In this document: piece by piece, positions 9,060 to 32,775 of the stretch
How the letters are laid out: each line of letters begins with the position of its first letter
Numbering within the stretch: position 1 is the stretch's first letter
NCBI GenBank assembly: GCA_015487165.1
Contig: WFQE01000227.1
Span: 81,966-143,939, forward strand
Reading direction: 5' to 3'
Origin: Paracoccaceae bacterium
GTDB taxonomy: Bacteria; Pseudomonadota; Alphaproteobacteria; Rhodobacterales; Rhodobacteraceae
DNA: 61,974 nt
The notes under the pieces: generated by a model
The model's input: only the letters and a program-made list of their open reading frames with translations
Database searches by the model: none
What the model was told of the DNA's origin: nothing
Position numbers and translations under genes: made by a program

Positions 9060-10211
9060 TTAGGCGGCCTGCTTCTGCGGCTGTTCCTGGTTGGCCGGCG
9101 CGTTCTCGGCGAAGGCCTCGGCCTCGATGTCGGCATACTTCGCGTAGCCCTTGGCATTGGCGAAGAAGCCGTCCGCGCAGAGCAGCAGCCGCTCGAACCG
9201 GTCGCCGCCGGCCTTGCGGATGGCGTCATGCAGGCGCAGGCCCGCGCCGCCGGTGAGCAGCAGCACGTCAATCTCTTCGAGGTTCCAGCCGAAGGATACG
9301 CTGTCGCAGACGCGGCTGGCGACGCTTTGCAGGGCATCCTCGGCCAGGTCGCTCACGTCAATCTCGCGGTTGCCGCCCGCGCGCAGAGTGCACTTGCCGT
9401 CCCTGAACACGAGCATCCGGGACGTGCGCGACTCGGGCACGGTGATGTGGTGCGTCTTGAAGATGCCGTCCAGCAGCCGCCGGAACACGTCGCGCATGCC
9501 GATTTCCTTGAAGCCCTTGCGGCTGGGGATGTAGTTGTAGCGCCCGTTCCGCATCTGGATGAACGCGAGATCCGTGGTGCGGTGGCCGATGTCCATGATG
9601 CCGATGACCTCGGCATCCGCCAGCGGCGTGCCCTCGCGCACGTTGCCCGCGTCATCGAACAGTTCGTTCAGGAACGAGGCATAGCTTTGCGGCAGGCAGA
9701 AGGCACGGATGCGTCCGGGCTGAACCGGATGCAGCACGTTGCCGACGTGGAACGGCTCGATGGCCTCGATGCTGTCAATGAGCCGCTCGCGCGCCTTCTC
9801 GGAGTCGTAGAAGCGCACCGGCAGGCCGGAAGCCACGAAGATGTCCTCGGGCCAGGCCTGGTGGCGGTGATAGTAGCCGCGCATGGCCACGCCCAGGGCG
9901 CCGCGCATCAGCGCCTGCCAGACCGGGCCTTCGGCCACATTGGCGTCGTCGCGGTTCTTCAACTGGCGGGAATCGTCCACGCAGGTGGCCAGCGAGCCGA
10001 TGAAATAGCGGTCGCCGCCGTATTCGACCATGAACGCGGCCAGCTCTTCGGGATTGATCAGCGAAATGTCCTCCTCGGCCAGGGACACGACCGACGGCAG
10101 GCTGTGCGTGACGACATGCTCGCCCGGGCCGGTGGAGTAGGCGATCTTGGTGAACCCGTGGCCGATGTCCGCGCCAACGACCAGGGGCGGGAGATGGTTC
10201 TTCTTGGGCAT
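9060..10211 (-). CDS. Actin-like plasmid segregation ATPase (ParM/StbA family)
   Basis: 383 residues. The actin-fold motifs are clear: phosphate 1 GADIGHGFTK near the N-terminus, phosphate 2 GIMDIGHRTTDLAF mid-protein, and the adenosine motif LLLTGGAG near residue 318. Such proteins form filaments that push plasmid copies apart. The start is at 10211 because GGAGG lies nine bases upstream; the frame extends ten codons further without a site. First gene of a six-gene operon (parR-like, RHH, HU, EF-hand, recJ). It is preceded by the GGAATA-TATACC / ATATCC motif also found before parE and the gene at 40169. Confidence 0.9.
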   Translation of the reverse strand: MPKKNHLPPLVVGADIGHGFTKIAYSTGPGEHVVTHSLPSVVSLAEEDISLINPEELAAFMVEYGGDRYFIGSLATCVDDSRQLKNRDDANVAEGPVWQALMRGALGVAMRGYYHRHQAWPEDIFVASGLPVRFYDSEKARERLIDSIEAIEPFHVGNVLHPVQPGRIRAFCLPQSYASFLNELFDDAGNVREGTPLADAEVIGIMDIGHRTTDLAFIQMRNGRYNYIPSRKGFKEIGMRDVFRRLLDGIFKTHHITVPESRTSRMLVFRDGKCTLRAGGNREIDVSDLAEDALQSVASRVCDSVSFGWNLEEIDVLLLTGGAGLRLHDAIRKAGGDRFERLLLCADGFFANAKGYAKYADIEAEAFAENAPANQEQPQKQAA

Positions 10212-10231
10212 GGTTTTCAACCTCCGCTTTC

Positions 10232-10257
10232 GGATATGCAAAAAGGTATATTATTCC
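10232..10257 (-). promoter_or_regulatory. Shared motif (type 2), copy upstream of parM
   Basis: On the minus strand GGAATAATATACC, seven bases, then ATATCC, ending 20 bases before the ATG. The same box, 7-base gap and ATATCC occur before parE (37884-37906) and the 40169 gene (40120-40146). Confidence 0.6.
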
Positions 10258-11951: not shown

Positions 11952-12158
11952 ATGGAAATCTACGAGATCCGTGAACTGTTAGAGGAGATCAACGGCGGAG
12001 AGGATCGCCGTTATTACTCGGACGAAGTAGGCTATTCGTCATACTTCGCCCGGGCGTGGTACGACGGGAACGCCGTCATCGGCGAAACCTACTTCAACTG
12101 GAAGAAAACAAGCGCCGAAGAGGCGCGCAAAATATGGGAACGGGAGGCGTCCCGATGA
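11952..12158 (+). CDS. Small hypothetical acidic protein
   Basis: 68 residues, start after a strong AGGAGGTAACA site. The sequence is rich in Tyr, Trp and acidic residues (for example YYSDEVGYSSYFARAWY). It is followed by two terminators and preceded by a large structured leader, so it is probably tightly regulated. No family recognised; small acidic aromatic plasmid proteins can be anti-restriction or anti-CRISPR factors, but nothing here shows that. Confidence 0.65.
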   Translation: MEIYEIRELLEEINGGEDRRYYSDEVGYSSYFARAWYDGNAVIGETYFNWKKTSAEEARKIWEREASR

Positions 12159-12175
12159 GCCGCCTCCCCGTTTTT
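12141..12175 (+). terminator. Terminator after the 11952 gene
   Basis: GGGAGGCG / CGCCTCCC hairpin followed by CG and TTTTT; the gene's stop lies within the stem-loop. Confidence 0.8.
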
Positions 12176-12236
12176 AGTTGCCGTGACGGCGCCGTCGAGC
12201 GCGGCGCCGTTGTCGAGATCTTTTAGATAAATACCT

Positions 12237-12277
12237 CCCCCACGTCTGCGATTCGTTCGCGGTGGGGGATTTTTTTG
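12237..12277 (+). terminator. Second terminator before the convergent genes
   Basis: CCCCCAC / GTGGGGG stem with an inner GCG-rich loop, followed by A and seven or more T. Confidence 0.8.
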
Positions 12278-12300
12278 CCCGGACTTCGACCGATCACCTG

Positions 12301-13053
12301 TCAGGACAGGATATGGTTGACCAACCTCTCGGACTGACGCCATAGCTGTTTCGAGATGCCGCCCAGCTCGTGCATGCGCGCAATCTGCCGCGCCCACTGC
12401 CGGAACATCTTCGCCTCATCGTGCAGTCCGCCATCCACCATCTCAAAGAGCTGCATGGCCAAGCCAAGATCATCGAGCTTCATTTCGACATCCAGCCGCT
12501 GGATGACATCTTCCTGCTCGACGGTGAGCAGTCCTTCCCGCATGCGCCTACGCTGTTCCTCCAGCCAGCGCGCAAGGCTCCGCATCTCGGACGAGATGGC
12601 GTCCCTGGCCGGCAGACGGCCGGTTTCACGAACATATGCCTCGATGGTTGCTGCGCGCTCGAACCATTTCTCCATGTGCTCACGGCCGCGTTGGCGCCGT
12701 CGCACGACGAAGTGAGCCAGGCCCAGCGTATTCAGCAGCCGAATCCGGCTCTCGGAAAGGAGCCCATCCCGATGCAGGCGCACCTGCTCATGGAACCAGA
12801 CGTTGACCCGACGCTCGGCAGCTCCCATTTTTCCTCCGGCCCGCAGTTCCTGGTATCGGCCGACGACGGCCGCGGCCTCGGCGAATGAGCGGAGCCATTC
12901 CTGTTCTGTCTGTCCGAAGTTGATATTGGCTTCGTCGCGCAGCGCCTGGATCTGGCGCGCGGACAGGCGGCTCTCGACGTATTGCCTGCGGAGCCGTTCG
13001 CGCCATTTCACGAGCTTGGCTTCCCGGGCGCGCTCGAACATATCTGTCGGCAC
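12301..13053 (-). CDS. Helicase-associated-domain (HA repeat) protein, probably the 3' part of a gene cut by the tnpB element
   Basis: 250 residues from a GTG at 13053 (an ATG at 13041 is also possible). At least two repeats follow the HA pattern found at the C-terminus of some DNA helicases. The clearest is KWFERAATIEAYVRETG, LARWLEEQRRRMREG and LTVEQEDVIQRL at about residues 128-193. Another is near 40-110 (VWFHEQVRLHRDGLL, LNTLGL). The frame stays open upstream into the right end of the IS element. A 32-codon fragment with a good ribosome site lies on the far side of the IS at 14479-14577. I infer one original gene, third in the csf4 transcript. Confidence 0.65.
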   Translation of the reverse strand: MPTDMFERAREAKLVKWRERLRRQYVESRLSARQIQALRDEANINFGQTEQEWLRSFAEAAAVVGRYQELRAGGKMGAAERRVNVWFHEQVRLHRDGLLSESRIRLLNTLGLAHFVVRRRQRGREHMEKWFERAATIEAYVRETGRLPARDAISSEMRSLARWLEEQRRRMREGLLTVEQEDVIQRLDVEMKLDDLGLAMQLFEMVDGGLHDEAKMFRQWARQIARMHELGGISKQLWRQSERLVNHILS

Positions 13054-13086
13054 ATGATCATCGGGGGCTTCCCCCGGAACGTAGCC

Positions 13087-13250
13087 TTGACATCCTCCCC
13101 GGCCTGAAGGCCGGGGATTCCCGGGAGCCGGCTCATACCGGCTCCGGGAGAAGCCGCGTCACCGCGACTTCAGGTTCCTGCTTCACGGGGAGGCCAGTGC
13201 CCTTTCCCTCCACAGGCTTCCACGGCATGCCCTGCCGCGGGGCGGCGATG
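13087..13250 (-). ncRNA. Putative omega RNA / reRNA of TnpB
   Basis: In this family the guide RNA is made from the 3' end of tnpB through the right end of the element. The segment carries two GC-rich hairpins, GAGCCGGT/ACCGGCTC (around 13124-13147) and 13097-13116. The natural guide would be the minus-strand sequence just beyond 13087. Boundaries are inferred. Confidence 0.5.
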
Positions 13251-14374
13251 CCCGCCGCCAAGATGTTCTTCGCCGCATTCACGTCGGCGTTGTCGCAATG
13301 TCCGCAGGCCGTGCAGCGGAAGGCCGCCTGCGATGTCCGGCTGGCAGCGTCCACATGCCCGCAGGCGGAGCACCGCTGCGAGGTGTGCTTCGGATCCACC
13401 AGCACCAAGCGTCCGCCCAGCCAGGACAGCTTGTATTCGAGCTGCCTGCGGAACTCGCCCCATCCGGCATCGAGGATGGAGCGGTTGAGTCCGGCCTTGG
13501 CGCGGACATTGCGACCGGGGCAATCGAGCGTGCCCCGGGCTGATGCGCTCATGTCCTTGACGCGCAGATCCTCAAGGCAGACGACCGCGTGGCTCTTGCT
13601 GATCGCCGTGGTGGCCTTGTGGATCGCGTCCATGCGCGCATCAGAAATCTTGGCGTGGATGCGGGCAATGCGCGCGCATTGCCGCTTCCAGTTGTTCGAG
13701 AACTTCTGCTTGCGGGCAAGCCGCCGCTGCTCCCGGGCGAGCTTGCGGCCCAGCCGTTTCAGCGCCTTGGCGCCGGGAAAGGTGGAACCGTCGGAGAGGG
13801 TGGCCATGTTGACCACGCCCATGTCCACGCCGATGGCCGTATCCGCCGGATGCGCCGGCTCGGGCACTTCCATCTCCGTCTGGATGGAGACGAACCAGTG
13901 ACCGGCCCGGCGGGACACGGTGGCGTTGCGTATTTCTCCCTCGACGGGCCGTGACAGGCGCAATTTCACCCAACCGGCCTTCGGCAGGTACACGCGGCTT
14001 CCTTCCAGCTTGATGCCTTGCGGATACCGGAACGCATCATGCCGCCCCTTGCGCTTGAAGCGCGGCAGGCGCTTGTTCGGCCGCTCGGGATCGAAGGCGT
14101 CCATGAACGCTCGGTCGAGCGCCTTCAGCGTCTGCTGGAGCGCCTGGGAGTGGGTTTCGCAGAGGAAGGCAAGTTCGTCGGTCTGTTTCCAGAAGCGCAG
14201 CAGGTTGCACATCTCGCCGTACCGCATGATCCGGTGTCCGTCCCGGAGCCGTCGCAGGTTGATCTCCAGCGCCTTGTTCCAGATGAATCGGCAGCAGCCG
14301 GCCTGTATCGCGAACAGGCTCCTCTGCCCTTCGGTCGGCTCCAGCCGGAAACGGAATCCCTTGCGGATCAACAT
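13133..14374 (-). CDS. tnpB: TnpB, RNA-guided nuclease of an IS1341-type element
   Basis: 413 residues from the ATG at 14374. TnpB uses an RNA from the element's right end to cut DNA beside a short motif. The RuvC residues are intact: D184 in GVDMGVVNM, E268 in VCLEDLRV and D364 in NADVNAAKN. The zinc finger cysteines are C335, C338, C354 and C357. The N-terminal wedge begins FRFRLEPTEGQ. All catalytic residues are present, so it may be active. It lies inside the csf4 transcription unit. Confidence 0.93.
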   Translation of the reverse strand: MLIRKGFRFRLEPTEGQRSLFAIQAGCCRFIWNKALEINLRRLRDGHRIMRYGEMCNLLRFWKQTDELAFLCETHSQALQQTLKALDRAFMDAFDPERPNKRLPRFKRKGRHDAFRYPQGIKLEGSRVYLPKAGWVKLRLSRPVEGEIRNATVSRRAGHWFVSIQTEMEVPEPAHPADTAIGVDMGVVNMATLSDGSTFPGAKALKRLGRKLAREQRRLARKQKFSNNWKRQCARIARIHAKISDARMDAIHKATTAISKSHAVVCLEDLRVKDMSASARGTLDCPGRNVRAKAGLNRSILDAGWGEFRRQLEYKLSWLGGRLVLVDPKHTSQRCSACGHVDAASRTSQAAFRCTACGHCDNADVNAAKNILAAGIAAPRQGMPWKPVEGKGTGLPVKQEPEVAVTRLLPEPV

Positions 14375-14478
14375 GACTTTGATTTTACAGGCGTATCTGT
14401 CGGATCGCAACATGCGAGAACTAGTTCTGACGGATCGGAACCGCGCGCCTTATATCCCCATGCCTGAAGGCAGGGGCT

Positions 14479-14970: not shown

Positions 14971-17229
14971 TTACAACCACTCGCGCTTCGGATACTTCTC
15001 GACGTATTTCCTGAGCGGCAGCAGCCAGCGTTTGCGCTTGGGGTCATCGTCCCAGATGCGCGGATCGAGGATCCAGAGCCTGCGGTCACGCACGCCTTTT
15101 CGGCGCATGAGTCGGCCCATGCCCTGCATGGTGGCGAAGAACGTCTCGGCCGCAAGCGCGTTCATGCGGAGCTTGCGGCGCGAGCGGACGGCCCATGTCG
15201 TGGTTCGGCCCAGGCTGACCTGGACGGCCGGAATCACGAGGTCGGTGAGCAGGGTGTCGCGCGCGGCTTCGGAATCCGGAACCGAGTCATCGCGCAGGTC
15301 CAATCCGGTCCATGCCGTGCCGGTGGCCAGCCAGATGGGCCGGTTGCCTGCCCTGGCCTCGGCCTTGAACCGTTCCTTGAGCGCCGTGATGCGGTCGCCC
15401 CGGTGCTGCTCGATGAGGCGTCCGTTGATCTCGTCGTCGCCTTGCAGCAGCTCGGCCAGCGCATGGAGCATCCGGTAGCCTGTGGCGAGCACGAGCGTTC
15501 CGCCGACGGCATCCGGGGCAATCCGGGTGGATATGACCTCGGCGATGGAGGCGATCCATTCCCATGCGGCCGAGTCCAGGCGGGCGTCATCGGCGGCGGC
15601 GCCATTGTCGCCCGGCCGGACGAGCTGGGAGGACATGGCGCAGATGACGGTCGGGATATTGTAGCCCCATGCGTGCTCGATGGGCGGCATGATCCTGGCG
15701 CGGTGCGGCGGCACGCCGAGGACGGTCTGCATGTAGCCATAGTTCCAGCGGCCCTTGGCGTCGGGCACGGCCAGCGAGGCGCTGAACAGCGCGCCGGTCT
15801 TCAGCGAGGCGAACATTCGCCTGAGCTTTGCCCGGACGCTGGCTGGGCCGGTGCCGACGGAGACGCGCCACTTTTTTTCCACGGGCGTGCTGGAAATGAG
15901 CATCGTGGTCTTGGGATGCGCGAGCGAGCCCAGCACGGCGATGTCGCGCCGCATGAGCATGAGGTCGGCTTCGCTTGAGCCGGCGCGCCGGGCGGCGTTC
16001 TTGGCGTGGCGGTGCAGGCCTGTCGCCATGCGTTTCATTTCCGAAACTCGGGGATCATCGTCGGACGAAATCACGGCCAGGGTCTGTTCCTGCACGTCGC
16101 GAAGCCAGTCGCGGCAAAACTGTTCCATTTCGGTCACGGCCGCCTTGGCGTTCTTGCGGCTGCTGGGCGCGGCCATGCGGTCGAGACGCAGCTTGAGCAT
16201 GTGCAGCGAGGTGATGGTGGTGAGCGCCATGGCGACGTTGCTTTCAAGAAGGTGCGCCTCGTCCACATACAGGGCGGAGAATAGGGGGAGGATGCTGCTT
16301 TCGCCCTCCTCGCCGCTGGCGCGCAGGTGGCATCCCAGCATGGCGTGGGTGCAGAGCACGAGCGAGCGTTCGGCGGCCAGGTTGCGGGGAGCCCTGTAGG
16401 CGGCGGCGCCACGGTCTTTCTCCGCGTCTTTCTCGGTAGCCTCGTCGGAGGCAAGTGCAATGGACTGCAATTCGAGTCCCGACAGGGACGGAGCGAGAGC
16501 CTCCACGTCGTGCAGCAGGTGGGATATGGGGTGGATTTCCGCGATGGCGCGGGAAGCGGCGGAAACGGGCGGCGCGCCTTCGTCGAGCCAGCGGGCGAGC
16601 GCCTCCGCCTCGTCTTCCGGGAGCGTATTTTCGGAGAGCATGTCTCGCAGTCGGCGTTCGGAGCAGAACTGGCCGCTGCCGAGGATGACGGCGGCATCAG
16701 GCTCGCAGCCGTCCTGCCGGCAGATCTCGCCCAGCTCCGCGACGGCGTGTGCGACGGTCTGGATGGAGGGGAAGGCGAGGACCGCCCGGATCATGTCCGG
16801 CATGGCCGCGACTTCCATGGCGGCGACGAGCATGGCCCGCGTCTTGCCGATGCCGGTTCCGGCCTGGGCCAGAAGGATCTCATGGTTCTGTGCGGCGGCG
16901 ATGGTTTCGCGCGCGATGGTGTCCTGTTCGGGCCGCATCCACGGGCGCAGCTTCTCGTGCGTGCGCTTGGCGGCGGCTTCCGCCGCGCGCGCGAGGATCA
17001 CTTCCATCCAGCGGGATTCGGATAGTCCATCGCGTTCGGCGGCCTTCCGGATCTCCTCGCGCTGCCGTTCCGACAGGTGGATGGTGGCCCATTCATAGGT
17101 TCCCGAGGCCGGCGGCTCGCCGGTGGCTTTCGCCTCCTGCTCGATGGCCCTGACCAGGGCGTTCTTGGCGGCCCTCGCCGCCGACAGCCCGCCTCGTATC
17201 AGGGCTTTGGGCACCTTGACCGAAATCAT
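14971..17229 (-). CDS. csf4: Type IV-A CRISPR-associated DinG-family helicase
   Basis: 752 residues. XPD/DinG superfamily 2 helicase with Walker A AQAGTGIGKT (121-130), DEAH box in YVDEAHLL, ATGTAWTGLDL and QGMGRLMRR (motif VI). The N-terminal about 95 residues form a separate helical and basic region before the helicase core, as in Type IV-A DinG proteins. No tight four-cysteine Fe-S cluster is obvious. In Type IV-A systems DinG unwinds 5' to 3' and is needed for loss of targeted plasmids. Starts with CGGAGG four bases upstream; divergent from csf5 with a 114-base gap. Confidence 0.9.
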   Translation of the reverse strand: MISVKVPKALIRGGLSAARAAKNALVRAIEQEAKATGEPPASGTYEWATIHLSERQREEIRKAAERDGLSESRWMEVILARAAEAAAKRTHEKLRPWMRPEQDTIARETIAAAQNHEILLAQAGTGIGKTRAMLVAAMEVAAMPDMIRAVLAFPSIQTVAHAVAELGEICRQDGCEPDAAVILGSGQFCSERRLRDMLSENTLPEDEAEALARWLDEGAPPVSAASRAIAEIHPISHLLHDVEALAPSLSGLELQSIALASDEATEKDAEKDRGAAAYRAPRNLAAERSLVLCTHAMLGCHLRASGEEGESSILPLFSALYVDEAHLLESNVAMALTTITSLHMLKLRLDRMAAPSSRKNAKAAVTEMEQFCRDWLRDVQEQTLAVISSDDDPRVSEMKRMATGLHRHAKNAARRAGSSEADLMLMRRDIAVLGSLAHPKTTMLISSTPVEKKWRVSVGTGPASVRAKLRRMFASLKTGALFSASLAVPDAKGRWNYGYMQTVLGVPPHRARIMPPIEHAWGYNIPTVICAMSSQLVRPGDNGAAADDARLDSAAWEWIASIAEVISTRIAPDAVGGTLVLATGYRMLHALAELLQGDDEINGRLIEQHRGDRITALKERFKAEARAGNRPIWLATGTAWTGLDLRDDSVPDSEAARDTLLTDLVIPAVQVSLGRTTTWAVRSRRKLRMNALAAETFFATMQGMGRLMRRKGVRDRRLWILDPRIWDDDPKRKRWLLPLRKYVEKYPKREWL

Positions 17230-17289
17230 AGAACCTCCGTCGCTGCATCTCGATTGACTTAGGGCAAATCAAAACACAAAGAAATGCAC

Positions 17290-17343: not shown

Positions 17344-18012
17344 ATGCAGGCAACACGACTTCGCATCAACCTGCCGCGCGAGATGCGCTCGGCGCCCACC
17401 CGGGCGATGGTCGCAGCCATCCTGAACGGCCGGGTTTCAGGCGAATTCTTCCGTCCCAGAAATGACGACGCCTACCCCACGACCATCGTTGCAAGCTATC
17501 CGCGCCAGGACGGCGGCCATGCCGTCATCATCACCGCGACCGGGAAGCAGGAGCAGGAACTGATCCAGAATCTCCCGGTCATCATTTCCGGATTCCAGGC
17601 CCGATTCGGGCCGTGCCAGTTCAATGTCACGACCGTGTATCCGACGATTTCCACTGCCGAAGCGCACCACAAGTATGTGATTCACCGGCCCGTTCCCTCC
17701 CGCAGCTACAGATGCGAGGACGCGCGGATCACCGGGAAGGAGGCGGCGGACTTACTGGAACAGGCCGTGCGCCGGGGCGTGAGACGCTTCGCCGAACTGG
17801 CTGGCGTGGACATCCCGGATTTTGATTTCTACACCGATCTGGCCAGGCAGGACTGGATTGACCTGAAGCCGGTGGTGGTCGAGCGCAGGGGCAAGGAAAA
17901 ATACAGCTACCTGTGCATGCCGAACTGCGAGTTCGTCACCAACCTTGCCATGAGAGACGTGTACCTGGGTGGCATGGCAACCCACGGGCACGGGGCGGTG
18001 CGCCATGTCTGA
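17344..18012 (+). CDS. csf5: Csf5, Cas6-like CRISPR RNA endonuclease of Type IV-A
   Basis: 222 residues. It cuts the pre-crRNA within repeats and stays bound to the hairpin. It has a RAMP-like N-terminal strand (TRLRINLPREM) and a C-terminal glycine-rich segment (VYLGGMATHGHGAVR) as in Cas6/Csf5. Arg and His residues that could serve catalysis are present, but I cannot assign them. The start at 17344 follows CGCAAGGAGGACAC. The ORF overlaps csf1 by eight bases. It must recognise the structurally conserved but sequence-variable repeats of this array. Confidence 0.85.
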   Translation: MQATRLRINLPREMRSAPTRAMVAAILNGRVSGEFFRPRNDDAYPTTIVASYPRQDGGHAVIITATGKQEQELIQNLPVIISGFQARFGPCQFNVTTVYPTISTAEAHHKYVIHRPVPSRSYRCEDARITGKEAADLLEQAVRRGVRRFAELAGVDIPDFDFYTDLARQDWIDLKPVVVERRGKEKYSYLCMPNCEFVTNLAMRDVYLGGMATHGHGAVRHV

Positions 18013-18811
18013 AGTCACCTGGATCAGGGCGCCGGAGCTGGCCGCGCGCGCGGCCGGATACGAGCCGGTCGGCGTGCCATGGATCGGCCCGGAGCCCACG
18101 ACATGCTACCTGTGCGGCCGGCCCATTCGTCCCGGCGAGATGCACTCGGAGGCCAAGCTGCCCAGCTCGTTCGTGGATCAGCCCGGGGCGGGGTGGGGTG
18201 GAAGCCACCACCTGTGCGGGTTCTGCCCGCTGGTATTCAAGCGACAGGGGCCGGACGGCGCGCCGCTGGGGAACACACTCCAGAAGACGAACACGCTGGT
18301 CTGCAAGGACGCCATCTATCCCATGAACAAGAACGTCCACCTGGTCTGGTTCCTGTTGCACACGCCCGAACCGCCGTTCGCCATGTGCATCACCACGGCC
18401 AAGTCGCAGCACCTGATCTGGAAGGCGCCGGTGACGCTGGATCACGAGGCCATGCAGCTCCAGGTCGGCGACAGCCGGCTGCTGATCCGGCGTGGATTCC
18501 TGTTTGGGCAGTTGATTCCAGCGGCAACCCGCCTGGGCGGCGCGCTGGAGAAGCTGCTCGGCCGGAAACGGGCGCCGCACCCGTTTGCCTCGATCCGGAA
18601 CAACGATGCGCCGGTCGGAGCGGCGACGATGCACCCGCGCATCATGGAAGCGGTGGGCGACGACCCATCGCTGCACGAGGACCTCTCCGTGGTCATGCAG
18701 GCCACGAACGGAGAAACCTGGGCCATGGGGCTCCTGCTGCGGCAGAACGCCATTGAGCCGGAAACCCCGGACCCGCTGTTCACACACGACAAGAAAGGAG
18801 ACAAGCAATGA
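18005..18811 (+). CDS. csf1: Csf1, large-subunit-like protein of the Type IV-A complex
   Basis: 268 residues. The N-terminal zinc-finger motif is CYLCG (residues 34-38), followed after about 35 residues by HLCGFC. This is the hallmark of Csf1. The rest is mixed alpha/beta. Csf1 sits at the base of the crRNA complex. The ATG lies within the last codons of csf5 and the stop overlaps the csf2 start (ATGA), so the four genes are translationally coupled. Confidence 0.88.
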   Translation: MSEVTWIRAPELAARAAGYEPVGVPWIGPEPTTCYLCGRPIRPGEMHSEAKLPSSFVDQPGAGWGGSHHLCGFCPLVFKRQGPDGAPLGNTLQKTNTLVCKDAIYPMNKNVHLVWFLLHTPEPPFAMCITTAKSQHLIWKAPVTLDHEAMQLQVGDSRLLIRRGFLFGQLIPAATRLGGALEKLLGRKRAPHPFASIRNNDAPVGAATMHPRIMEAVGDDPSLHEDLSVVMQATNGETWAMGLLLRQNAIEPETPDPLFTHDKKGDKQ

Positions 18812-19836
18812 GATATGTGATTGAAGGTGAAATGACCGCCGTGACCCCGATGCACATCGCATCCGGCGAAGGCAATGTCCGGTACGACTTCAAGACCGGC
18901 CGGAAGATCTACGGGCCGAGCGGCGGGGTGCCGCTGACGACGACCCAGCACAAGACCATCGTGTTGCCGGAGAAGGGCGGCACGATGCAGGTCCCCGGCG
19001 TGAATGCCAACACGCTGCGCGGCGGCATCCGGCGCGCGGGCGCCCGGGTGGTCGCTCGCATGCTGGCCGACAAGGGCGAGGCCGTTTCCAACGACACCAT
19101 GCTTCGCATGCTCGCCGGCACGTCCTCCGGCCGGCCGTCCAAGGAAATGACCGGCCTGGACGAGATGGACGAAATCTTCAACAACCCGTTCGTCGGACTG
19201 TTCGGCGGCGGAGAACGGATGCACCGCTCGCGCTTCGTCTGCTGCGATGGCTGGCCGATGCTGGACGAGCTGGTGGAGCTGGGAACCATCCCGTCCGATG
19301 CCCAGACCATGGAATCGCGCAAGGGACTGACCTCGGTGCTGGTGTTGCGCCGGGTCAACGACATCCTCCGCAACCTGGCCTCGGTGCGCGAGAACTTCGA
19401 GGCCGCGGTCAAGGATTTCAACGCCGAGGCGCAGCGCATCATCGAGGACGCGGCGGAGCGAACCAAGCGCAAGAAGCAGGGCGAAGAAGCCAGCGCCGAC
19501 GACTCGATGCTGGACTCCATCAACGCGCTGGAGATCGTGAATCCGGGCACGCGCTTCTATGTCCGCTTCGAGGCCAACGGCGCGGCCCACCACGCGGGCA
19601 TGCTGCTCAAGGCATTGGAGGAATTCGTTTCCACGGACAACGTGGGCGGCTGGGGCCGCAATGACTTCGGGCGCGTCCGCTTCGACCTGCATGTGCGCGC
19701 CGAGGACGAGCACGAGCCGGTTCCGGCATTCGGACCCGACGGCCGACTGTCGCCGGACGTGAAGCCATACCTGGACGCTCTCGACGAGGCCTCCGGCGAG
19801 ATCAACGCCGAGAAGCTCGAACGGCTGCTGGCGTAA
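18808..19836 (+). CDS. csf2: Csf2, Cas7-like backbone subunit of Type IV-A
   Basis: 342 residues. A RAMP-like N-terminus (MRYVIEGEMTAVTPMHIASGEG) is typical of Csf2. VPGVNANTLRGGIRRAGAR (residues 63-81) and the C-terminal GGWGRNDFGRVRF follow. Several copies coat the crRNA spacer. It overlaps csf1 by four bases with AAAGGAGA upstream. Length is normal for the family. Confidence 0.9.
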   Translation: MRYVIEGEMTAVTPMHIASGEGNVRYDFKTGRKIYGPSGGVPLTTTQHKTIVLPEKGGTMQVPGVNANTLRGGIRRAGARVVARMLADKGEAVSNDTMLRMLAGTSSGRPSKEMTGLDEMDEIFNNPFVGLFGGGERMHRSRFVCCDGWPMLDELVELGTIPSDAQTMESRKGLTSVLVLRRVNDILRNLASVRENFEAAVKDFNAEAQRIIEDAAERTKRKKQGEEASADDSMLDSINALEIVNPGTRFYVRFEANGAAHHAGMLLKALEEFVSTDNVGGWGRNDFGRVRFDLHVRAEDEHEPVPAFGPDGRLSPDVKPYLDALDEASGEINAEKLERLLA

Positions 19837-19839
19837 CCC

Positions 19840-20499
19840 ATGCGACCGCTACGCATTGACTGGCAAATCGTGACCCCGGTGGTCGCCGATGACGCCATGC
19901 TCCACCTGGACGGCATGCTGGCATGGGCGGCGGCGGACATGGCCATCGAGGATGGCGTCCCCGCCGAGCAGGCCATCGCAAACCTGCCGCTCGAAAAGCA
20001 TGAGCAGGGCGACGACTGGGTATGGAAGGCCAGCGCCGTGGCGTTCAGCCGTGACGGCGTGCCCGAGAACCTCGTCTATCGCCGCTCCGTGGACTTTGCC
20101 CTGATGCGCGACATGCAGCGGGAAACAGGCGGGTTCGAGTACAGGCGCAAGAACGCGGAGCTCACATACGTCTGCAAGGGCATCAGCAAGCGATGGCAGT
20201 TGCAGACGGCCACAATCTGGGCGCAGCATGCCGTCGCCTGGTGCGTGGGGGATCCTGACCGGGTGCGGGAGCTGCTCGGCCGGCTGAACTACATCGGCAA
20301 GCTGGCCCGGCTGGGCTGCGGGCGCGTGGCCAAGGTCACGGTGACGGAAGATGATGCCGCGCACGAACGCTGGAAATGGCGGCACCTGCCGTGGCGCGAG
20401 GATGGTTACGTCCCCATCGAGGGATGCACCTCGCCGCCATACTGGCGCCGGGATCAGGCGCGCATGTGCTGGCGGCCCACGGCCAACGCGAACCTGTAG
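19840..20499 (+). CDS. csf3: Csf3, Cas5-like subunit of Type IV-A
   Basis: 219 residues, four bases after csf2. Csf3 caps the 5' handle of the crRNA. It has an N-terminal RAMP strand (LRIDWQIVTPV), the pattern YIGKLARLGCGRV near residue 150 where Csf3 has a glycine-rich loop, and a conserved-looking C-terminal region with several Trp. It is the last cas gene before the leader and array. No cas1 or cas2 follows, as is usual for Type IV-A. Confidence 0.87.
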   Translation: MRPLRIDWQIVTPVVADDAMLHLDGMLAWAAADMAIEDGVPAEQAIANLPLEKHEQGDDWVWKASAVAFSRDGVPENLVYRRSVDFALMRDMQRETGGFEYRRKNAELTYVCKGISKRWQLQTATIWAQHAVAWCVGDPDRVRELLGRLNYIGKLARLGCGRVAKVTVTEDDAAHERWKWRHLPWREDGYVPIEGCTSPPYWRRDQARMCWRPTANANL

Positions 20500-20662
20500 C
20501 GACCGCGAAAGCGGGGGAGGTTCGCGCAAGGCGGAAAGCCTTGTCGTTCTTTACAATCTGGTCGTTCTGAGAACTCCATTCGCGGCGGTCGTATGGAGGA
20601 AGGGAGAGGTTCGCGAAATAGAAGTCATTTGCCTTGCAATTCCATGGGGTTGCAGAGGCAGA
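20500..20662 (+). promoter_or_regulatory. CRISPR leader
   Basis: 163 bases between csf3 and the first repeat. It contains two copies of GAGGTTCGCG (around 20517 and 20607) and an AT-richer middle with TTGTCG and TTTACAAT. The leader side is inferred because the repeats next to it are the most uniform and the far end is degenerate. Confidence 0.55.
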
Positions 20663-22149
20663 GTCTGATTCGCCCGGTAAGGTGCCGGGTGGTTGAAAGA
20701 CTATGATTAGCCGCGAGGCCTTGCGGCCTCTTGCGTCTGATTCGCCCGGTAAGGTACCGGGTGGTTGAAAGGCTGGGTAGTTACGGCCTCTGGCTGGCTG
20801 GTGCTATCGTCTGATTCGCCCGGTAAGGTGCCGGGTGGTTGAAAGCAAGGAGCGACCGAGCTCGCCCCCGGCGGCGACGAGTCTGATTCGCCCGGTGAGG
20901 AGCCGGGTGGTTGAAAGTCGCGGAGCTTGATGCCGTGTGCGAAGAGCTTGACCGTCTGATTCGCCCGGTGATGCACCGGGCGGTTGAAAGACCCCGCCGG
21001 CCTACATGAACCGGCCGGGCACGGAGTCTGATTCGCCCGTGGATGACCCGGGCGGTTGAAAGTGGATGGCCCTGGTGGCGATTGTACCGGTGGTGGCCGT
21101 GTCTTATTCACCCATGGAAATCCATGGGTGATTAAAGGTTGTGGAGGGTATTCGACTTGCGCCCTGCAAGAGGTCTGATTCACTTGGTGAAGCTCCAGGT
21201 GGTTGAAAACTATGATATCTGGCCGGAGGCGTGCTGGCTCGATCCATCTAGTTCATCCGGGGCTCTGGGTGGTTGGAAGATCGAGAACGTCGGCCTCGAT
21301 CCGGCCGGCGAAGGTCTGATTCGCCCGGGGAAGAACCGGGTGGTTGAAAGCGCACTAGCCGAAAGATGGTCGTAGCCGCTGCGTCGTCTTATTCACCCGG
21401 GAGATGCCCGGGTGGTTGAAAGATTGCGCGGGCTCTTCAAACTGGCTTTTCCTCCGACGTCTGATTCGCCCGGTGATGCACCGGGCGGTTGAAAGGAGCG
21501 ATGGCCGAATTTGACCACTCGTGATAATTCGTTTGATTCACCCGGTGAGGCACCGGGTGGTTGAAAGGCCTCCATACGGTGGACGAGGCCGTGCAGCGCT
21601 GGTCTGATTCGCCCGTGGATGACCCGGGCGGTTGAAAGTTTGGAGAATTGAATGGCCTCTTGAATGCAACCCCGTCTGATTCACCCGGGGAGTGACCCGG
21701 GTGGTTGAAAATCGAGACAATTCACGCAAACCGTGCATTAAATAAGGTGTCTGATTCGCCCGGGGAATACCCGGGTGGTTGAAAGCTCATACTGTCACTG
21801 ACCACCATCATACTGCGCTTGGTCTGATTCGCCCGGTGAGGTGCCGGGTGGTTGAAAGGAGCGCGTGGGCAAGCGGGTGGAAGAGGTGCTTGCCGTCTAA
21901 TTCGCCCGGGGAAGACCCGGGTGGTTGAAAGAAGACGCGGGCTTGGACATCCATTGGCAGCCGGGCGTCTGATTCGCTCGGGAGCACCCCGGGCGGTTGA
22001 AAGGCCTTTCGCCCGGTACGATCCGCAACAAACTGAGTCTTCTGATTCGCCCGGTGAGGTACCGGGTGGTTGAAAGGACGCTGGCAACCTGGAGCCGGTC
22101 GCCAGCGAGCTGGTCTTATTCGCCCGGGTAGGTTCCGGACGGTTGGTTT
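20663..22149 (+). CRISPR. Type IV-A CRISPR array, 21 repeats and 20 spacers
   Basis: Repeats are 37 nt (one 38) and spacers 33-38 nt. Repeat starts: 20663, 20735, 20809, 20881, 20954, 21026, 21101, 21173, 21243 (degenerate), 21314, 21386, 21459, 21531, 21602, 21674, 21749, 21822, 21895, 21967, 22040 and 22113 (degenerate). The flanks are constant (GTCTGATTCG at the 5' side, GGTTGAAAG at the 3' side). The central hairpin changes from repeat to repeat but keeps pairing. The 3' end GGTTGAAAG fits a 7-8 nt crRNA 5' handle after cleavage at the stem base. The array follows csf3 on the same strand. Confidence 0.97.
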
Positions 22150-22333: not shown

Positions 22334-23320
22334 TCACTCCTCGAACACCTTCCTGACCCGATCTCTTCGTTTCCGTTCTTCGGAATCATCATAGAGCCTG
22401 GTCGTCTCGATGTTGGCATGCCGGGCTGCCGTGGCCACCTCGTGGATGGATGCTCCGCTGTCGAGAGCCCACGTCACGAATGTGTGCCGCAGGTCATGGG
22501 GGCCAAGGGACTCCTTGGCAATTCCCGCTCGTTCCATGCACTGGCGGGCGAGCAGTTGAACCATGTCCTTGCTCAGTGGCGTGCCGCGTTTGGACACCCA
22601 GAGGTGATCGGACTCCTTGCCCGCGAACAGGGCGGGGCGCGATTCCCGGATCCACTGGCGTAGCGGCTCGGCTGCCTGGCGGGTGATGATGACAGGCATG
22701 TTCTTGCCGCCCTTGCCGATGACGCGGATCTCCATGGCGTCCCAGTCAATATCGGACATCCGGATGCCCACGAGTTCGTGGACGCGCAGGCCGGAGTAGG
22801 CGAGCAGGTAGAAGATGGCCACGTTGCGCGTGACGATGTGCGGATCGTTGCTGGAGGCGCGCACCTGCTCGATGAAGCGTTCCCATTCCTTTTGCGACAG
22901 GGCGTACTCGCGCGGTTTGTGACGCCGCTGGCGTGGCCGGTGCGTGCGCTGGTATTCGCGCGCCCAGTTGCGCTCGCACTTGTTGAGCATGATGGCCTCG
23001 TCGAGCAGGCCGACGAGGACGGACAGGCGCATCTGGCGATAGCTGGGCGATGGCGCGATGAGTTCGGCGGCCTGTCCCTGCCGGACGGACCTGTTCTTGG
23101 AGAGCTTGCGCCTGACCGGCCTGGACACCAGCTCGGCCACATGCTCGGCCACGATGTCGGCGGGGTGGATGACGCGACCATCGGGATTGGCCACGATCTC
23201 GAACCACTCGCGGATGATGCGGCGATAGGTTTCCCGCGTGCGTTCGCTGCTGATGCTTTCGCGGTTCAGCAGGGATTGGGCGATGATGTTCCAGTCCTCG
23301 ATGATGTTGTTCTTGCTCAC
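22334..23320 (-). CDS. Tyrosine recombinase (XerC/D-like integrase)
   Basis: 328 residues from a GTG at 23320 preceded by GGAGGCTTCGCC. Catalytic residues are present: R in AYSGLRVHELV, K in IGKGGKNMPV, H and R in PHDLRHTF, H in ARHANIETTRLYDD and the nucleophile Y in RLYDD. The N-terminal half is a SAM-like core-binding domain. It may resolve multimers or integrate the element. The GTG overlaps the stop of the GT-C gene (GTGA). No attachment site was identified nearby. Confidence 0.92.
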   Translation of the reverse strand: MSKNNIIEDWNIIAQSLLNRESISSERTRETYRRIIREWFEIVANPDGRVIHPADIVAEHVAELVSRPVRRKLSKNRSVRQGQAAELIAPSPSYRQMRLSVLVGLLDEAIMLNKCERNWAREYQRTHRPRQRRHKPREYALSQKEWERFIEQVRASSNDPHIVTRNVAIFYLLAYSGLRVHELVGIRMSDIDWDAMEIRVIGKGGKNMPVIITRQAAEPLRQWIRESRPALFAGKESDHLWVSKRGTPLSKDMVQLLARQCMERAGIAKESLGPHDLRHTFVTWALDSGASIHEVATAARHANIETTRLYDDSEERKRRDRVRKVFEE

Positions 23321-27311: not shown

Positions 27312-28829
27312 TCAAAATCCCGCCTGCGCGCGCATGTCGGCCATGGCGTCGTCCACGGTGCCGTCCATGCCCCGCCGCAGGCCCTCGATGGATTCCGTGA
27401 CCTTGGGCGGCAGGAATGCGCGGTCCGTGAACCGGGTGATGGCCACATACATGAGATTCACTTCGTCCTCGGTGAGTCGCCCATTGGCCTTGGCCTCGTA
27501 CAGGCTGGGGAAATCGTCGGCCAGGCATCCGACGGGAAACTCCAGCCCCTTCGACTTGTGCGCCGTGCAGAGAACGAGGTCGGCATCCGAGATCCGGCGC
27601 GCGGCGCCGGCGCGGATCTGCTTGACGACCTGCGGCAGGTCAATCTCCTTGGACTCGCACCGGAAGATGATGCCCATGATGCCCTTGAGTTCCGGGTCTT
27701 CGGTGTGATGCGCCACGCGCATGAAGTCCCCCCACCCCTGGAACCCGGCGAAGAGCGGGTTGTCCGGCTTCTTGCCGCGCTTGAAGAAGTAGGCGTCCAC
27801 GAAGTCGTTGAAGCGGTATCCGCCGATGCCGCCGACGAAGTACGGGCGCATGTCCTTGGCGATGGCGGCAGCGGCCAGCGCGAAGATTCCCGCGTTGGTT
27901 CGGGCGATGTATGCGGAGCCGCGCGCGACGGATACCCAGCCGGCGTCCACGACCTTCGTGGGCTTGCCGAGTCCGCGGATCTCCGTCCCCTCCCCCTTCC
28001 ATTGCGCGAGCAGCGCATTGGCGCGCCAGGCCACCTCGGGGCCGAAGCGGAACGAGCCGGTGAGCGGGTATTCGGTGTCCGGGTTCATTTCGGCCATTGC
28101 GTTGACGGCGTTCCGGAAGCTGTAGATCTGCTGGTGGCGGTCGCCGATGAGCATGATCCGGGGCTTGTCCTGGTGCTTGAGGATGTTGAGCAGCACCGGG
28201 TTTGAGTCCTGGGCCTCGTCCACCTGGATCGTATCGAAGTCGTCTCCGAGATTCGGACGCGTGAGGCTGTAGAGCTTCATGTAGCCGTCATGCAGGATGG
28301 GCACGTCACTTGTCGGGTCGCACATCGCAACCCAGAGGCGCTGGGCCTGTTCGATCATCCTGGAGAACGGGAGGATGGACAGGTTCCCGGGAGCTCGCTC
28401 CTTGAGATGGATGGGGTCCATGTCGTCGAAGGATTCGATGTCGTTCTGAAGGAAGTGGTTGAGCATCCGCAGCACGCCCTGTGCGAACAGGAAGCGTCCC
28501 GTGTTGGAATAGCCCGGGGGCACCTCGATCCACTTCCGTTCCAGCAGTTCGCCCGGCTTCATGTCGTCGGCCAGCTTGTGCTTGTATGCCTTGCCGATGG
28601 CGCTGTAGGCCAGTCCGTGCGCGGTGGTGGCAAACACGTTGGACGGCATCTTTTGGCGCGCTTCGAGCGCGACCGACTTGTTGAAGGCCAGGTAGAGAAT
28701 GCGCTCCTTGGGGTGCGCGCTGGCATAGGCGCGCATGGTGGTGCTCTTTCCGGTTCCCGCGAAGGCATTGACGCAGATGACGCGGCCCTGCGCGCCGATG
28801 ATGGCCTTCTGCTCGTCCGTCAACTGCAT
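27312..28829 (-). CDS. UvrD/Rep-superfamily DNA helicase (FBH1-like)
   Basis: 505 residues. Superfamily 1A motifs in order: AFAGTGKST (22-30), TTAHGLAYSAIG, DEAQDSNP (motif II), GDRHQQIYSFRNA (III), AHKSKGLEFP (V) and YVAITRFTDRAF (VI). It is shorter than UvrD or Rep, close to the stand-alone FBH1-like form. The ATG lies about six bases after a TATGAT box, with no ribosome site, so the transcript is probably leaderless. Role in recombination or replication of the element inferred. Confidence 0.9.
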   Translation of the reverse strand: MQLTDEQKAIIGAQGRVICVNAFAGTGKSTTMRAYASAHPKERILYLAFNKSVALEARQKMPSNVFATTAHGLAYSAIGKAYKHKLADDMKPGELLERKWIEVPPGYSNTGRFLFAQGVLRMLNHFLQNDIESFDDMDPIHLKERAPGNLSILPFSRMIEQAQRLWVAMCDPTSDVPILHDGYMKLYSLTRPNLGDDFDTIQVDEAQDSNPVLLNILKHQDKPRIMLIGDRHQQIYSFRNAVNAMAEMNPDTEYPLTGSFRFGPEVAWRANALLAQWKGEGTEIRGLGKPTKVVDAGWVSVARGSAYIARTNAGIFALAAAAIAKDMRPYFVGGIGGYRFNDFVDAYFFKRGKKPDNPLFAGFQGWGDFMRVAHHTEDPELKGIMGIIFRCESKEIDLPQVVKQIRAGAARRISDADLVLCTAHKSKGLEFPVGCLADDFPSLYEAKANGRLTEDEVNLMYVAITRFTDRAFLPPKVTESIEGLRRGMDGTVDDAMADMRAQAGF

Positions 28830-28947
28830 GGGCCAATCATAGCAATCGAAGATTGAGCGCGCACTGCTTGATTCTATTGGTCGCTTTGTTCTAAGATAGC
28901 ACCGTCTCACTCTGCGGCTCTTGCCTAGAGAGTCGCGTGCCCCATCT

Positions 28948-32163: not shown

Positions 32164-32775
32164 TCACACTTGCGCCGCTGCGCGAACCTTCCCGCTGCGG
32201 GCGAACATCCCGACGGGTAGCAACTGCTCGACCATATCCATGTGGCGGTCACTGAACATGCCGCCTCCTCGCAGCACGAAGGCCGGATGGAAGCACGGGA
32301 TGATGTACCTGATGCGGCCGCCGAGATCGGCCAGGAATTGCCGGCCGGCAACGTCCTTGAGCTTGGGCCGTCCGTCTTCGTGGAACAGCTCGAAGATGAC
32401 CTCCACGGCCTTCTGGCCGACGGGCACGATGACCCTGGCACGGGACGCGGCGAGCAGGCGTTCGCCGAAACGGTCCCAGCACTTTCGGCGCTCGGTGAGC
32501 GGGAATCCGGCGTTGTTGCGGCTGCGGTGGTAGTTGATGTTGGTGATTATCCGGTCTTCCGGACGGATGCCGACCATTTCGAGCGTCTCCCGTAGCAGCT
32601 TGCCTGACGGGCCGCAAAACGGCCTGCCCTCTTCCAGCTCGGTTGCGCCCGGATCCTGCCCGATCAGCAGTATGGGCGCGTCCAACCGCCCTTCGGCGAC
32701 GACCACGCGCTCGTATTCATGGACGCCGGCGCATTCCCGGCAGCGTCTTGCCTCTGCCTCGATTGTCTCGATCAC
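32164..32775 (-). CDS. Uracil-DNA glycosylase family protein (type 4/5-like)
   Basis: 203 residues. Removes uracil from DNA. Motifs: GQDPGATELEEGRPFCGPSG (residues 39-58), TNINYHRSRNN near 79-89 and IIPCFHPAFVLR near 160-171 (the HP catalytic loop). N-terminal CRECAG and later Cys residues could hold the 4Fe-4S cluster of the family. It ends the unit that begins with topoisomerase IV and overlaps the PilZ-like gene start by four bases. Confidence 0.85.
   Translation of the reverse strand: MIETIEAEARRCRECAGVHEYERVVVAEGRLDAPILLIGQDPGATELEEGRPFCGPSGKLLRETLEMVGIRPEDRIITNINYHRSRNNAGFPLTERRKCWDRFGERLLAASRARVIVPVGQKAVEVIFELFHEDGRPKLKDVAGRQFLADLGGRIRYIIPCFHPAFVLRGGGMFSDRHMDMVEQLLPVGMFARSGKVRAAAQV

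Follow-up and report, generated by a model that had tools for sequence, protein, structure and literature searches.

The closest described relatives of the locus reported here are the type IV-A1 CRISPR-Cas systems of Pseudomonas oleovorans and Aromatoleum aromaticum EbN1, with which it shares the gene set csf4-csf5-csf1-csf2-csf3; as in EbN1, csf4 lies on the opposite strand and the array follows csf3. According to PMC8175902, type IV systems commonly occur without adaptation genes and are thought to borrow them, and PMC11656645 reports this as shown in IV-A3. Variant repeats are known at the ends of arrays, where they were suggested to limit recombination (PMC8047081). We analysed a stretch of 61,974 nucleotides from a Paracoccaceae bacterium (assembly GCA_015487165.1, contig WFQE01000227.1, positions 81,966 to 143,939), hereafter the window. 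CRISPR repeats are usually taken as copies of one sequence; in the array of this window, and in other type IV-A arrays described below, they differ widely inside a single array and the hairpin is mostly kept.

Divergent repeats and paired stems in the window

The array and its repeats are listed below. Stem pairs are numbered upwards from the hairpin base, positions 9 and 29 of the 37-mer forming pair 1.

20500..20662, plus strand: presumed leader, so named from its position, 163 bp from csf3 to the first repeat
20663..22149, plus strand: CRISPR array, 21 repeats and 20 spacers of 34-38 nt
20663..20699, plus strand: first repeat, R1, same as R3 (20809-20845); R2 (20735-20771) has one base different
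20881..20917, plus strand: R4
20954..20990, plus strand: R5, same as R12 (21459-21495); pair 2 G-C, pair 8 T-A
21026..21062, plus strand: R6, same as R14 (21602-21638); pair 7 T.C, probably a bulge
21101..21137, plus strand: R7; A-T and T-A at pairs 6 and 7, both sides being changed; 3' tag lacks one base
21173..21209, plus strand: R8; T-A at pair 5, changed on both sides; pair 4 T-G, pair 8 T.T
21246..21279, plus strand: R9, a degenerate repeat of 34 nt
21314..21350, plus strand: R10; pair 8 a G.A mismatch
21386..21422, plus strand: R11; pair 2 A-T, pair 8 G-C
21531..21567, plus strand: R13; pair 2 A-T, pair 8 T-A
21674..21711, plus strand: R15, 38 nt; pair 2 A-T, pair 8 G-C
21749..21785, 21822-21858, 21895-21931, 21967-22003 and 22040-22076, plus strand: R16-R20, leader-distal core repeats
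22113..22149, plus strand: R21, degenerate last repeat; pair 3 C.A, 3' tag changed

An initial annotation of this DNA had placed 21 repeats at 20663-22149, correctly in both respects, and the six stems that it quoted all occur exactly. Nineteen repeats measure 37 nt (R15 has 38, R9 has 34), and 18 of the 21 are distinct, with R1=R3, R5=R12 and R6=R14 as the identical sets. With a median distance of 6 of 37 nt, the repeats lack the near-identity of an ordinary array; the annotation had rightly set the array apart from normal ones on this ground, though nine of 25 type IV-A arrays are alike in this respect.

The variation is unevenly spread. Among the 14 distinct 37-mers (R7, R9, R15 and R21 omitted), the 5' flank and the 3' tag have mean diversities of 0.065 and 0.017, in agreement with the nearly constant flanks that had been annotated. 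The two lower arms of the stem have 0.14 and 0.09, the two upper arms 0.21 and 0.23, and the loop 0.476. The tag reads GTTGAAAG in 16 of the 21 repeats, and most of its changes are held by R7, R9, R15 and R21, in all of which it is changed. Hairpin loops are predicted at 3 to 7 nt, which upholds the upper but not the lower limit of the 4 to 7 nt given earlier. The hairpin itself had been described as kept. Nearly all repeats do keep it; the exceptions passed over are pair 7 of R6 and R14, pair 8 of R8 and R10, pair 3 of R21, the degenerate R9 and R21, and the tag of R7, one base short.

Pairing was evaluated by exchanging 3' halves among the distinct repeats and counting pairs at fixed positions (half-swap test). 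With the 16 core repeats, that is, the distinct repeats other than R9 and R21, 125 of 128 stem positions are paired, as compared to a mean of 114.4 after swapping (standard deviation 2.4, P at most 1e-4). The excess persists with all 18 distinct repeats (140/144 vs 128.2, P 5e-5) and with R7 in the common register (119/128 vs 111.2, P 0.0002). Similar results were obtained from a MAFFT alignment of the 21 repeats, where 93.8% of cells are paired and 86.9% when the 3' letters are shuffled (reached in 0 of 500 shuffles); when the named structure is slid to other offsets the value falls to 30-58%. The covariation score of this alignment is 0.294 vs 0.176 shuffled (1/500), and 8 cells are changed on both sides vs 3.8 (2/500). 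The mean folding energy of the 14 distinct repeats defined above is -15.94 kcal/mol and rises to -14.11 kcal/mol with columns shuffled (P 0.0005). Finally, over the first seven pairs of the 18 distinct repeats, 17 of 19 departures from the commonest pair are still paired (14 one-sided, 3 two-sided) and 2 are broken. The initial annotation had named stem variation that breaks pairing as often as it keeps it as the outcome that would speak against its reading; variation here mostly keeps it. Together, these results show that pairing is kept beyond chance, and they support the annotated claim that the array has evolved under structural selection.

These results also bear on a rival explanation, in which the array is dead and decaying and its pairing is a remnant of a perfect ancestral hairpin. 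The missing Cas1 match and the lack of convincing spacer targets (see below) are in keeping with it, as are the degenerate R9 and R21. Remnant pairing, however, would not make native halves fit better than swapped ones, as they clearly do; the GTTGAAAG tag persists in 16 of 21 repeats while the loop columns are very diverse; and the csf genes have uninterrupted reading frames that match the expected families. We consider decay distinctly unlikely.

Two 17-nt stretches of the presumed leader, GGGGGAGGTTCGCGCAA (20513-20529) and GGGAGAGGTTCGCGAAA (20602-20618), are 88% identical and stand 89 bp apart.

Other type IV-A arrays and the inheritance of repeat variants

In order to place the window among its relatives, 25 type IV-A arrays were compared, taken from plasmid records, from genome contigs scanned with a profile (12 loci) and from a similarity search; L013a (9 repeats) and L037 (3 repeats) stand outside this set. 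Divergent repeats, with a median distance of at least 5, occur in nine of the 25, and the medians of the other sixteen run from 0 to 4. These nine fall into about five groups, defined by repeat sequence and not by a tree. The divergent arrays are:

the window
L014, Pseudomonas sp. FeN3W
L015, Azospira sp. I09 pAZI09
L027, a Puniceicoccaceae metagenome-assembled genome
L017, Alcanivorax nanhaiticus (L019 lineage, as are the next four)
L019, Shewanella profunda; L019 and L019b are halves of one array
L032, Citrobacter freundii pN330-2
L033, Vibrio parahaemolyticus pVPS91
L034, Escherichia coli pEc8791

The half-swap test covered the window, L014, L015, L017, L019 and L019b (L027 was left out, and one degenerate L015 repeat near 10200 was omitted here and from the distance comparisons). 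An excess of native pairing was observed in L014 (57/66 vs 47.3, P 0.0007) and L015 (111/126 vs 105.1, P 0.004), and L017 is borderline (96/102 vs 93.8, P 0.04). Over these six data sets, which count both halves of the L019 array, 47 of 60 lower-stem departures are still paired (33 one-sided, 14 two-sided) and 13 are broken. Per-pair diversity climbs overall from base to apex in the same six. This suggests that the processing enzyme may read most of the stem base together with the tag, the apex needing only to close, and such a reading agrees with the general binding mode of Cas6 enzymes. Both-sided stem rewrites were also seen by eye in fairly uniform Pseudomonas arrays (L036:7893-7921, for example CCTCGC/GCGAGG, and L021:10510-10538).

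The 128 pairs of the 16 core stems in the window comprise 112 Watson-Crick pairs, 13 G-U, no A-C and 3 others; with all 18 distinct stems the 144 pairs divide into 123, 17, 1 and 3. Since a G-U on the plus strand is an A-C on the other strand, the tolerance of G-U and the absence of A-C from the core would place selection on the plus-strand transcript. The G-U excess thus points to plus-strand RNA as the level of selection and against repair at the level of DNA. By such repair, templated on the inverted repeat, the arms would stay complementary without any selection on RNA, and two-sided changes would arise at once, as in pairs 6-7 of R7 or in the stems of L014. It should, however, erase G.T as readily as A.C. 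Apart from L014 (4:4), the other arrays lean to G-U as well, with G-U:A-C counts of 10:6 in L015, 6:2 in L017, 7:2 in L019 and 6:1 in L019b; for these counts, ten of eleven consecutive identical L019 repeats were omitted and the borders of L015 and L017 are imperfect, as are those of L024 and L027. On this asymmetry we rejected DNA-level repair as the main cause and regard it as very unlikely.

Comparisons within the L019 lineage indicate how the variants are passed on. Between L019 and L032, the repeat core is identical in 28 of 29 shared spacer neighbours, which indicates that the variants are inherited and not quickly mutating. For spacers that recur in this lineage, 36 occurrence pairs have matching repeats on both flanks, 17 only downstream, 2 only upstream and 27 on neither side, these pairs not being independent of one another. 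Adjacent repeats resemble each other more than expected by chance in L015 (P 0.001), L017 (0.018), L019 and L032 (0.0002 each) and L034 (0.035), marginally so in the window (P 0.063), and not significantly in L014 (0.42), L027 (0.52) and L033 (0.29). All 58 repeats of L019 and L019b, with improved borders, enter these figures and the distances.

Several side observations concern the same lineage. The 58-repeat array of S. profunda (L019:9882-14478) is divided by an IS30-like open reading frame (ORF; 12108-13055, named by eye) that breaks a spacer, and the spacer is unbroken in L032. The plasmids of L032 and L034, both typed IncC, carry arrays of 75 and 34 units, and in the fetched stretch of L034 only a 444-bp csf3 beside IS1 is annotated.

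Exchange between arrays could account for much of the diversity: variants would come mainly from several sources, through recombination between arrays of different plasmids, and an array would be a mosaic of ready-made hairpins. The interleaving of R5=R12 with R6=R14 in the window fits this, as does the occurrence of identical stem-loop variants in different species, L017 and L019, which share no spacers. The preference of recurring spacers for their downstream repeat over the upstream one (17 against 2) points the same way. On the other side, donor arrays remain unseen, no second array with the repeats of the window being found in its own genome, in viral contigs or in plasmids; moreover, a mosaic accounts for the origin of variants and not for their pairing, so that it complements structural selection. 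As the main source of the variants we hold it to be possible, if rather doubtful.

Diversity might also be favoured for its own sake, unlike repeats recombining less and thereby sparing spacers from deletion, as PMC8047081 proposes for terminal repeats. The longest identical run between two repeats has a median of 14 nt in the window, 6-12 nt in six other diverse data sets and 23-31 nt in the seven most uniform arrays, all from earlier lists with imperfect borders (L022 among them) and with the L019 omission given above. Intermediate arrays nevertheless overlap in this measure (18 in L011, 16 in L018, 14 in L025 and 13 in L024). At eight rearrangement junctions of the related plasmid lineage, the stem-loops joined differ by 0, 1, 2, 3, 4, 4, 5 and 6, random pairs giving means of 3.75-4.2; the junction with distance 1 covers 51 units and may be several events. 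Similar and dissimilar repeats are thus both found joined at junctions, so divergence is no bar to rearrangement, and the idea of protection is weakened. We find it unlikely.

A tyrosine recombinase gene (22334-23317, minus strand; Phage_integrase, E-value 1.6e-30) ends about 185 bp from the last repeat. A recombinase so placed might shuffle repeat units in the manner of an integron and thereby select folded sites; structured, sequence-variable sites resemble attC. A site-specific integrase is likewise annotated in L015, about 7.5 kb before its array. By eye, however, no such recombinase is among the ORFs listed after the divergent L017 and L019 arrays or the moderate L018 array, the upstream sides lying outside this inspection; these ORFs include an LPD-like protein, an IS30-like transposase and a methylase-like protein. 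Given the absence of the gene after these three arrays, integron-like shuffling was rejected and appears to us scarcely credible.

Probable structural selection and its weight

We consider structural selection the best explanation of the kept hairpins, and a reasonably probable one. Repeats would be transcribed from the plus strand, and nearly all of them are predicted to fold into a hairpin of about 8-10 pairs. As is the practice in the Cas6 family, Csf5 would cut at the hairpin base and leave a tag of 7-8 nt. The crRNA (CRISPR RNA) 5' end reported at position -7 in IV-A1 (PMC11519345) is in line with such a tag. With no detectable Cas1 in the genome, the repeats would not be regularly renewed from one template; each variant may instead be stable and passed on by itself, with some reshuffling through recombination. 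Repeats whose stem no longer closes would then be removed by purifying selection acting on the RNA. The sequence itself is kept in the 3' tag and in most pairs near the stem base; towards the apex, probably only the ability to pair is. All this suggests that selection has guarded the shape and the stem base of the repeat more than its full sequence. The initial annotation had proposed that Csf5 recognises shape together with a few constant bases. This is a plausible and good hypothesis, to be narrowed in that the base and the tag would be read largely in sequence and the apex in shape.

A number of observations weigh against this explanation, and the first of them concern the window itself. 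The pairing signal rests on the eighth pair, which alternates mainly between T-A or T-G and G-C, and on the two rewritten repeats R7 and R8: when these two are removed, pair 8 remains significant (P 0.002) and no signal is left in pairs 1 to 7 (P 0.46). Pair 2 is G-U, G-C or A-U in all 21 repeats and never A-C (allowing for the shorter tag of R7), but its alternation has no significance on its own (P 0.45), since a single change turns G-U into either A-U or G-C. Of the compensatory changes announced by the initial annotation, the excess pairing and the both-sided rewrites of R7 and R8 thus stand, while its pair 2 example is largely single-step variation around G-U. Pair 2 also departs from the gradient, with a diversity of 0.37 at the base of the stem where its neighbours have 0. 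In the MAFFT alignment, the number of pairs with a both-sided change is unremarkable (2 vs 1.2, 76/500 shuffles), as are further pair types (362/500), and the covariation term of RNAalifold is small (-0.38). The repeats are, moreover, related by copying, and the shuffle tests ignore descent; the interleaved identities R5=R12 and R6=R14 fit copying or exchange of units and not independent drift alone.

Others of these observations come from the related arrays. No half-swap excess was detected in L019 (P 0.51) or L019b (P 0.24). The pooled L019 lineage, in which 194 of 201 extracted stems have 16 nt and were used (60 distinct), gives a weak signal (P 0.03 with six pairs counted, P 0.59 with seven), and most of what varies in this lineage belongs to the loop. 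As to renewal, no Cas1 match was found in the genome of the window (98.5% complete), which favours the explanation, nor in those of L017 and L019. Cas1 was found in four of 17 genomes or records (L021, L024, L026 and L028); the medians of their arrays run from 1 to 4. Five genomes without a Cas1 match (L018, L020, L022, L023 and L025) nevertheless have fairly uniform arrays, with medians of 1 to 3, and Cas1 presence is not associated with uniform repeats (one-sided Mann-Whitney P 0.40, four genomes with and eight without, on the earlier lists with imperfect borders). This search covered 17 of 18 records, L027 being excluded, six of them plasmid records without the host chromosome; L032-L036 and L038 were not included.

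The spacers belong with the points on this side. Those of the window have no convincing target in phages or plasmids (nothing below an E-value of 0.1) or in their own genome. The sole own-genome match, of 32 nt (E-value 0.0023), lies inside the array itself on the R7 palindrome, and the S9 region resembles, over 31 nt that extend past the spacer, a WGR-domain gene carried by two plasmids (E-value 1).

The related arrays, for their part, seem to be in use. One L019 spacer matches 35 of 35 nt in two records (H65, typed IncC, and H66) and 97% of 34 nt in H67-H80. Its target, on conjugative plasmids, is annotated traG in 13 of the 16 listed records, 938 having matched in all, and the spacer sits in a stretch of identical repeats. 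It is shared by L032, an IncC plasmid that may thus target its own kind.

A broader proposal, which we put forward tentatively as possible and still short of probable, is that a plasmid-borne class of type IV-A systems has escaped repeat homogenisation. Their repeats would be separately inherited alleles, with base and tag read in sequence and the apex checked for pairing, and units of a spacer plus its downstream repeat would be exchanged between arrays. If true, a single array would be a natural library of hairpin variants that records the tolerance of the processing enzyme. Divergent arrays are also a natural experiment that directly tests the substrate requirements of Csf5. They lead one to ask how systems with no Cas1 of their own take up spacers, or whether they have ceased to do so, and array finders that expect identical repeats may miss or truncate them.

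The csf genes and comparison with known systems

Judged from its genes, the window carries a complete type IV-A CRISPR-Cas locus, made of csf4, csf5, csf1, csf2, csf3 and the array.

14971..17229, minus strand, opposite to the other csf genes: csf4, CasDinG helicase; NCBIfam TIGR03117 398 bits, cut-off 400; best PADLOC model Csf4_1_IVA1, E-value 3.3e-111
17344..18012, plus strand: csf5, predicted Cas6-type crRNA endonuclease, from its predicted fold; NF045575 E-value 7.8e-10, 39 bits, cut-off 150
17969..18811, plus strand: csf1, Cas8-like; TIGR03114 155.9 bits, cut-off 140
18808..19836, plus strand: csf2, Cas7; TIGR03115 215 bits, cut-off 130
19840..20499, plus strand: csf3, Cas5; TIGR03116 163.4 bits, cut-off 140

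Csf1, Csf2 and Csf3 exceed the NCBI cut-offs and Csf4 falls two bits below. For all five Csf proteins the best PADLOC models are type IV models: IVA1 for Csf4, Cas6_2_IVA1 for Csf5 (E-value 1.3e-6) and general type IV models for Csf1-Csf3. The locus thus shows the csf2 signature of type IV-A together with csf1, csf3 and a csf4 DinG helicase, the last recognised by PADLOC and just short of TIGR03117. The position of the array beside csf3 and the lack of a Cas1 match in the genome (Cas2 was not searched) fit a IV-A array without adaptation genes of its own.

Csf5 is strongly diverged in sequence. Its start was taken as the ATG behind GGAGG, a longer ORF beginning at 17284. The protein has no Pfam match, and a PDB search with the single sequence gave no relevant one. 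An AlphaFold2 model built on 12 aligned sequences (mean pLDDT, the predicted local distance difference test, 75.7) has Csf5 chains as its top four PDB matches (E-values 2.7e-10 to 3.7e-9, template-modelling scores 0.64-0.67), followed by Cas6 enzymes; the closest entries are 8rc3, 8rfj and 6h9h. The fold is thus what marks it as a predicted endonuclease of the Csf5/Cas6 kind. Its glycine-rich C-terminal loop reads THGHG, and the position of the first H holds R or K in 10 of 11 aligned Csf5 and I in L026. Csf5 active sites with arginine are described in PMC8175902.

Relatives of csf2 were found in 1 of 295 genomes of the window's family, its own, and in 2 of 398 genomes of the phylum, one again its own. 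Viral contigs gave no match to the Csf2 profile and none to repeats of the window or L019 type, and an initial scan of genome contigs gave no relative.

Elsewhere in the window, a TnpB gene lies at 13133-14413 on the minus strand (NF040570, 327.8 bits). A sub-threshold HgcC-like RNA match (13076-13157, minus strand; 34.3 bits, gathering threshold 50) overlaps and follows the end of this gene and could be its guide RNA. Neighbouring genes encode an actin-like protein (9060-10241), a UvrD-like helicase (27312-28910), a uracil-DNA glycosylase (32164-32775) and a topoisomerase IV/gyrase A subunit (33475-35763). The stretch may belong to a plasmid or an integrated element.

A literature search returned no paper on divergent repeats by title; the main type IV surveys lay outside it and novelty is not claimed. 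Beside the shared gene set, the locus differs from EbN1 in its Csf2, only 30% identical over 94%, and from both EbN1 and the P. oleovorans array L021 in its 37-nt repeats, which are more divergent (mean distance 0.192 per nt, as compared to 0.084 in the larger EbN1 block and 0.105 in L021). As described by Kunin et al. 2007 (PMC1896005), structured repeat clusters share with the window stem changes that keep pairs, G-U pairs, free loops and a conserved GAAA(C/G) end; in that account, however, the changes lie between the arrays of different organisms and repeats are generally identical per array, whereas here they lie within one array. A further likeness is found in L014, L015 and the L019 lineage (L017, L019, L032, L033 and L034), where divergent repeats also stand in one array with the hairpin largely kept. 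They differ from the window in their repeat sequences and, in the case of L019 and L032, in their 58 and 75 units, L019 being moreover without the half-swap excess that the window shows.

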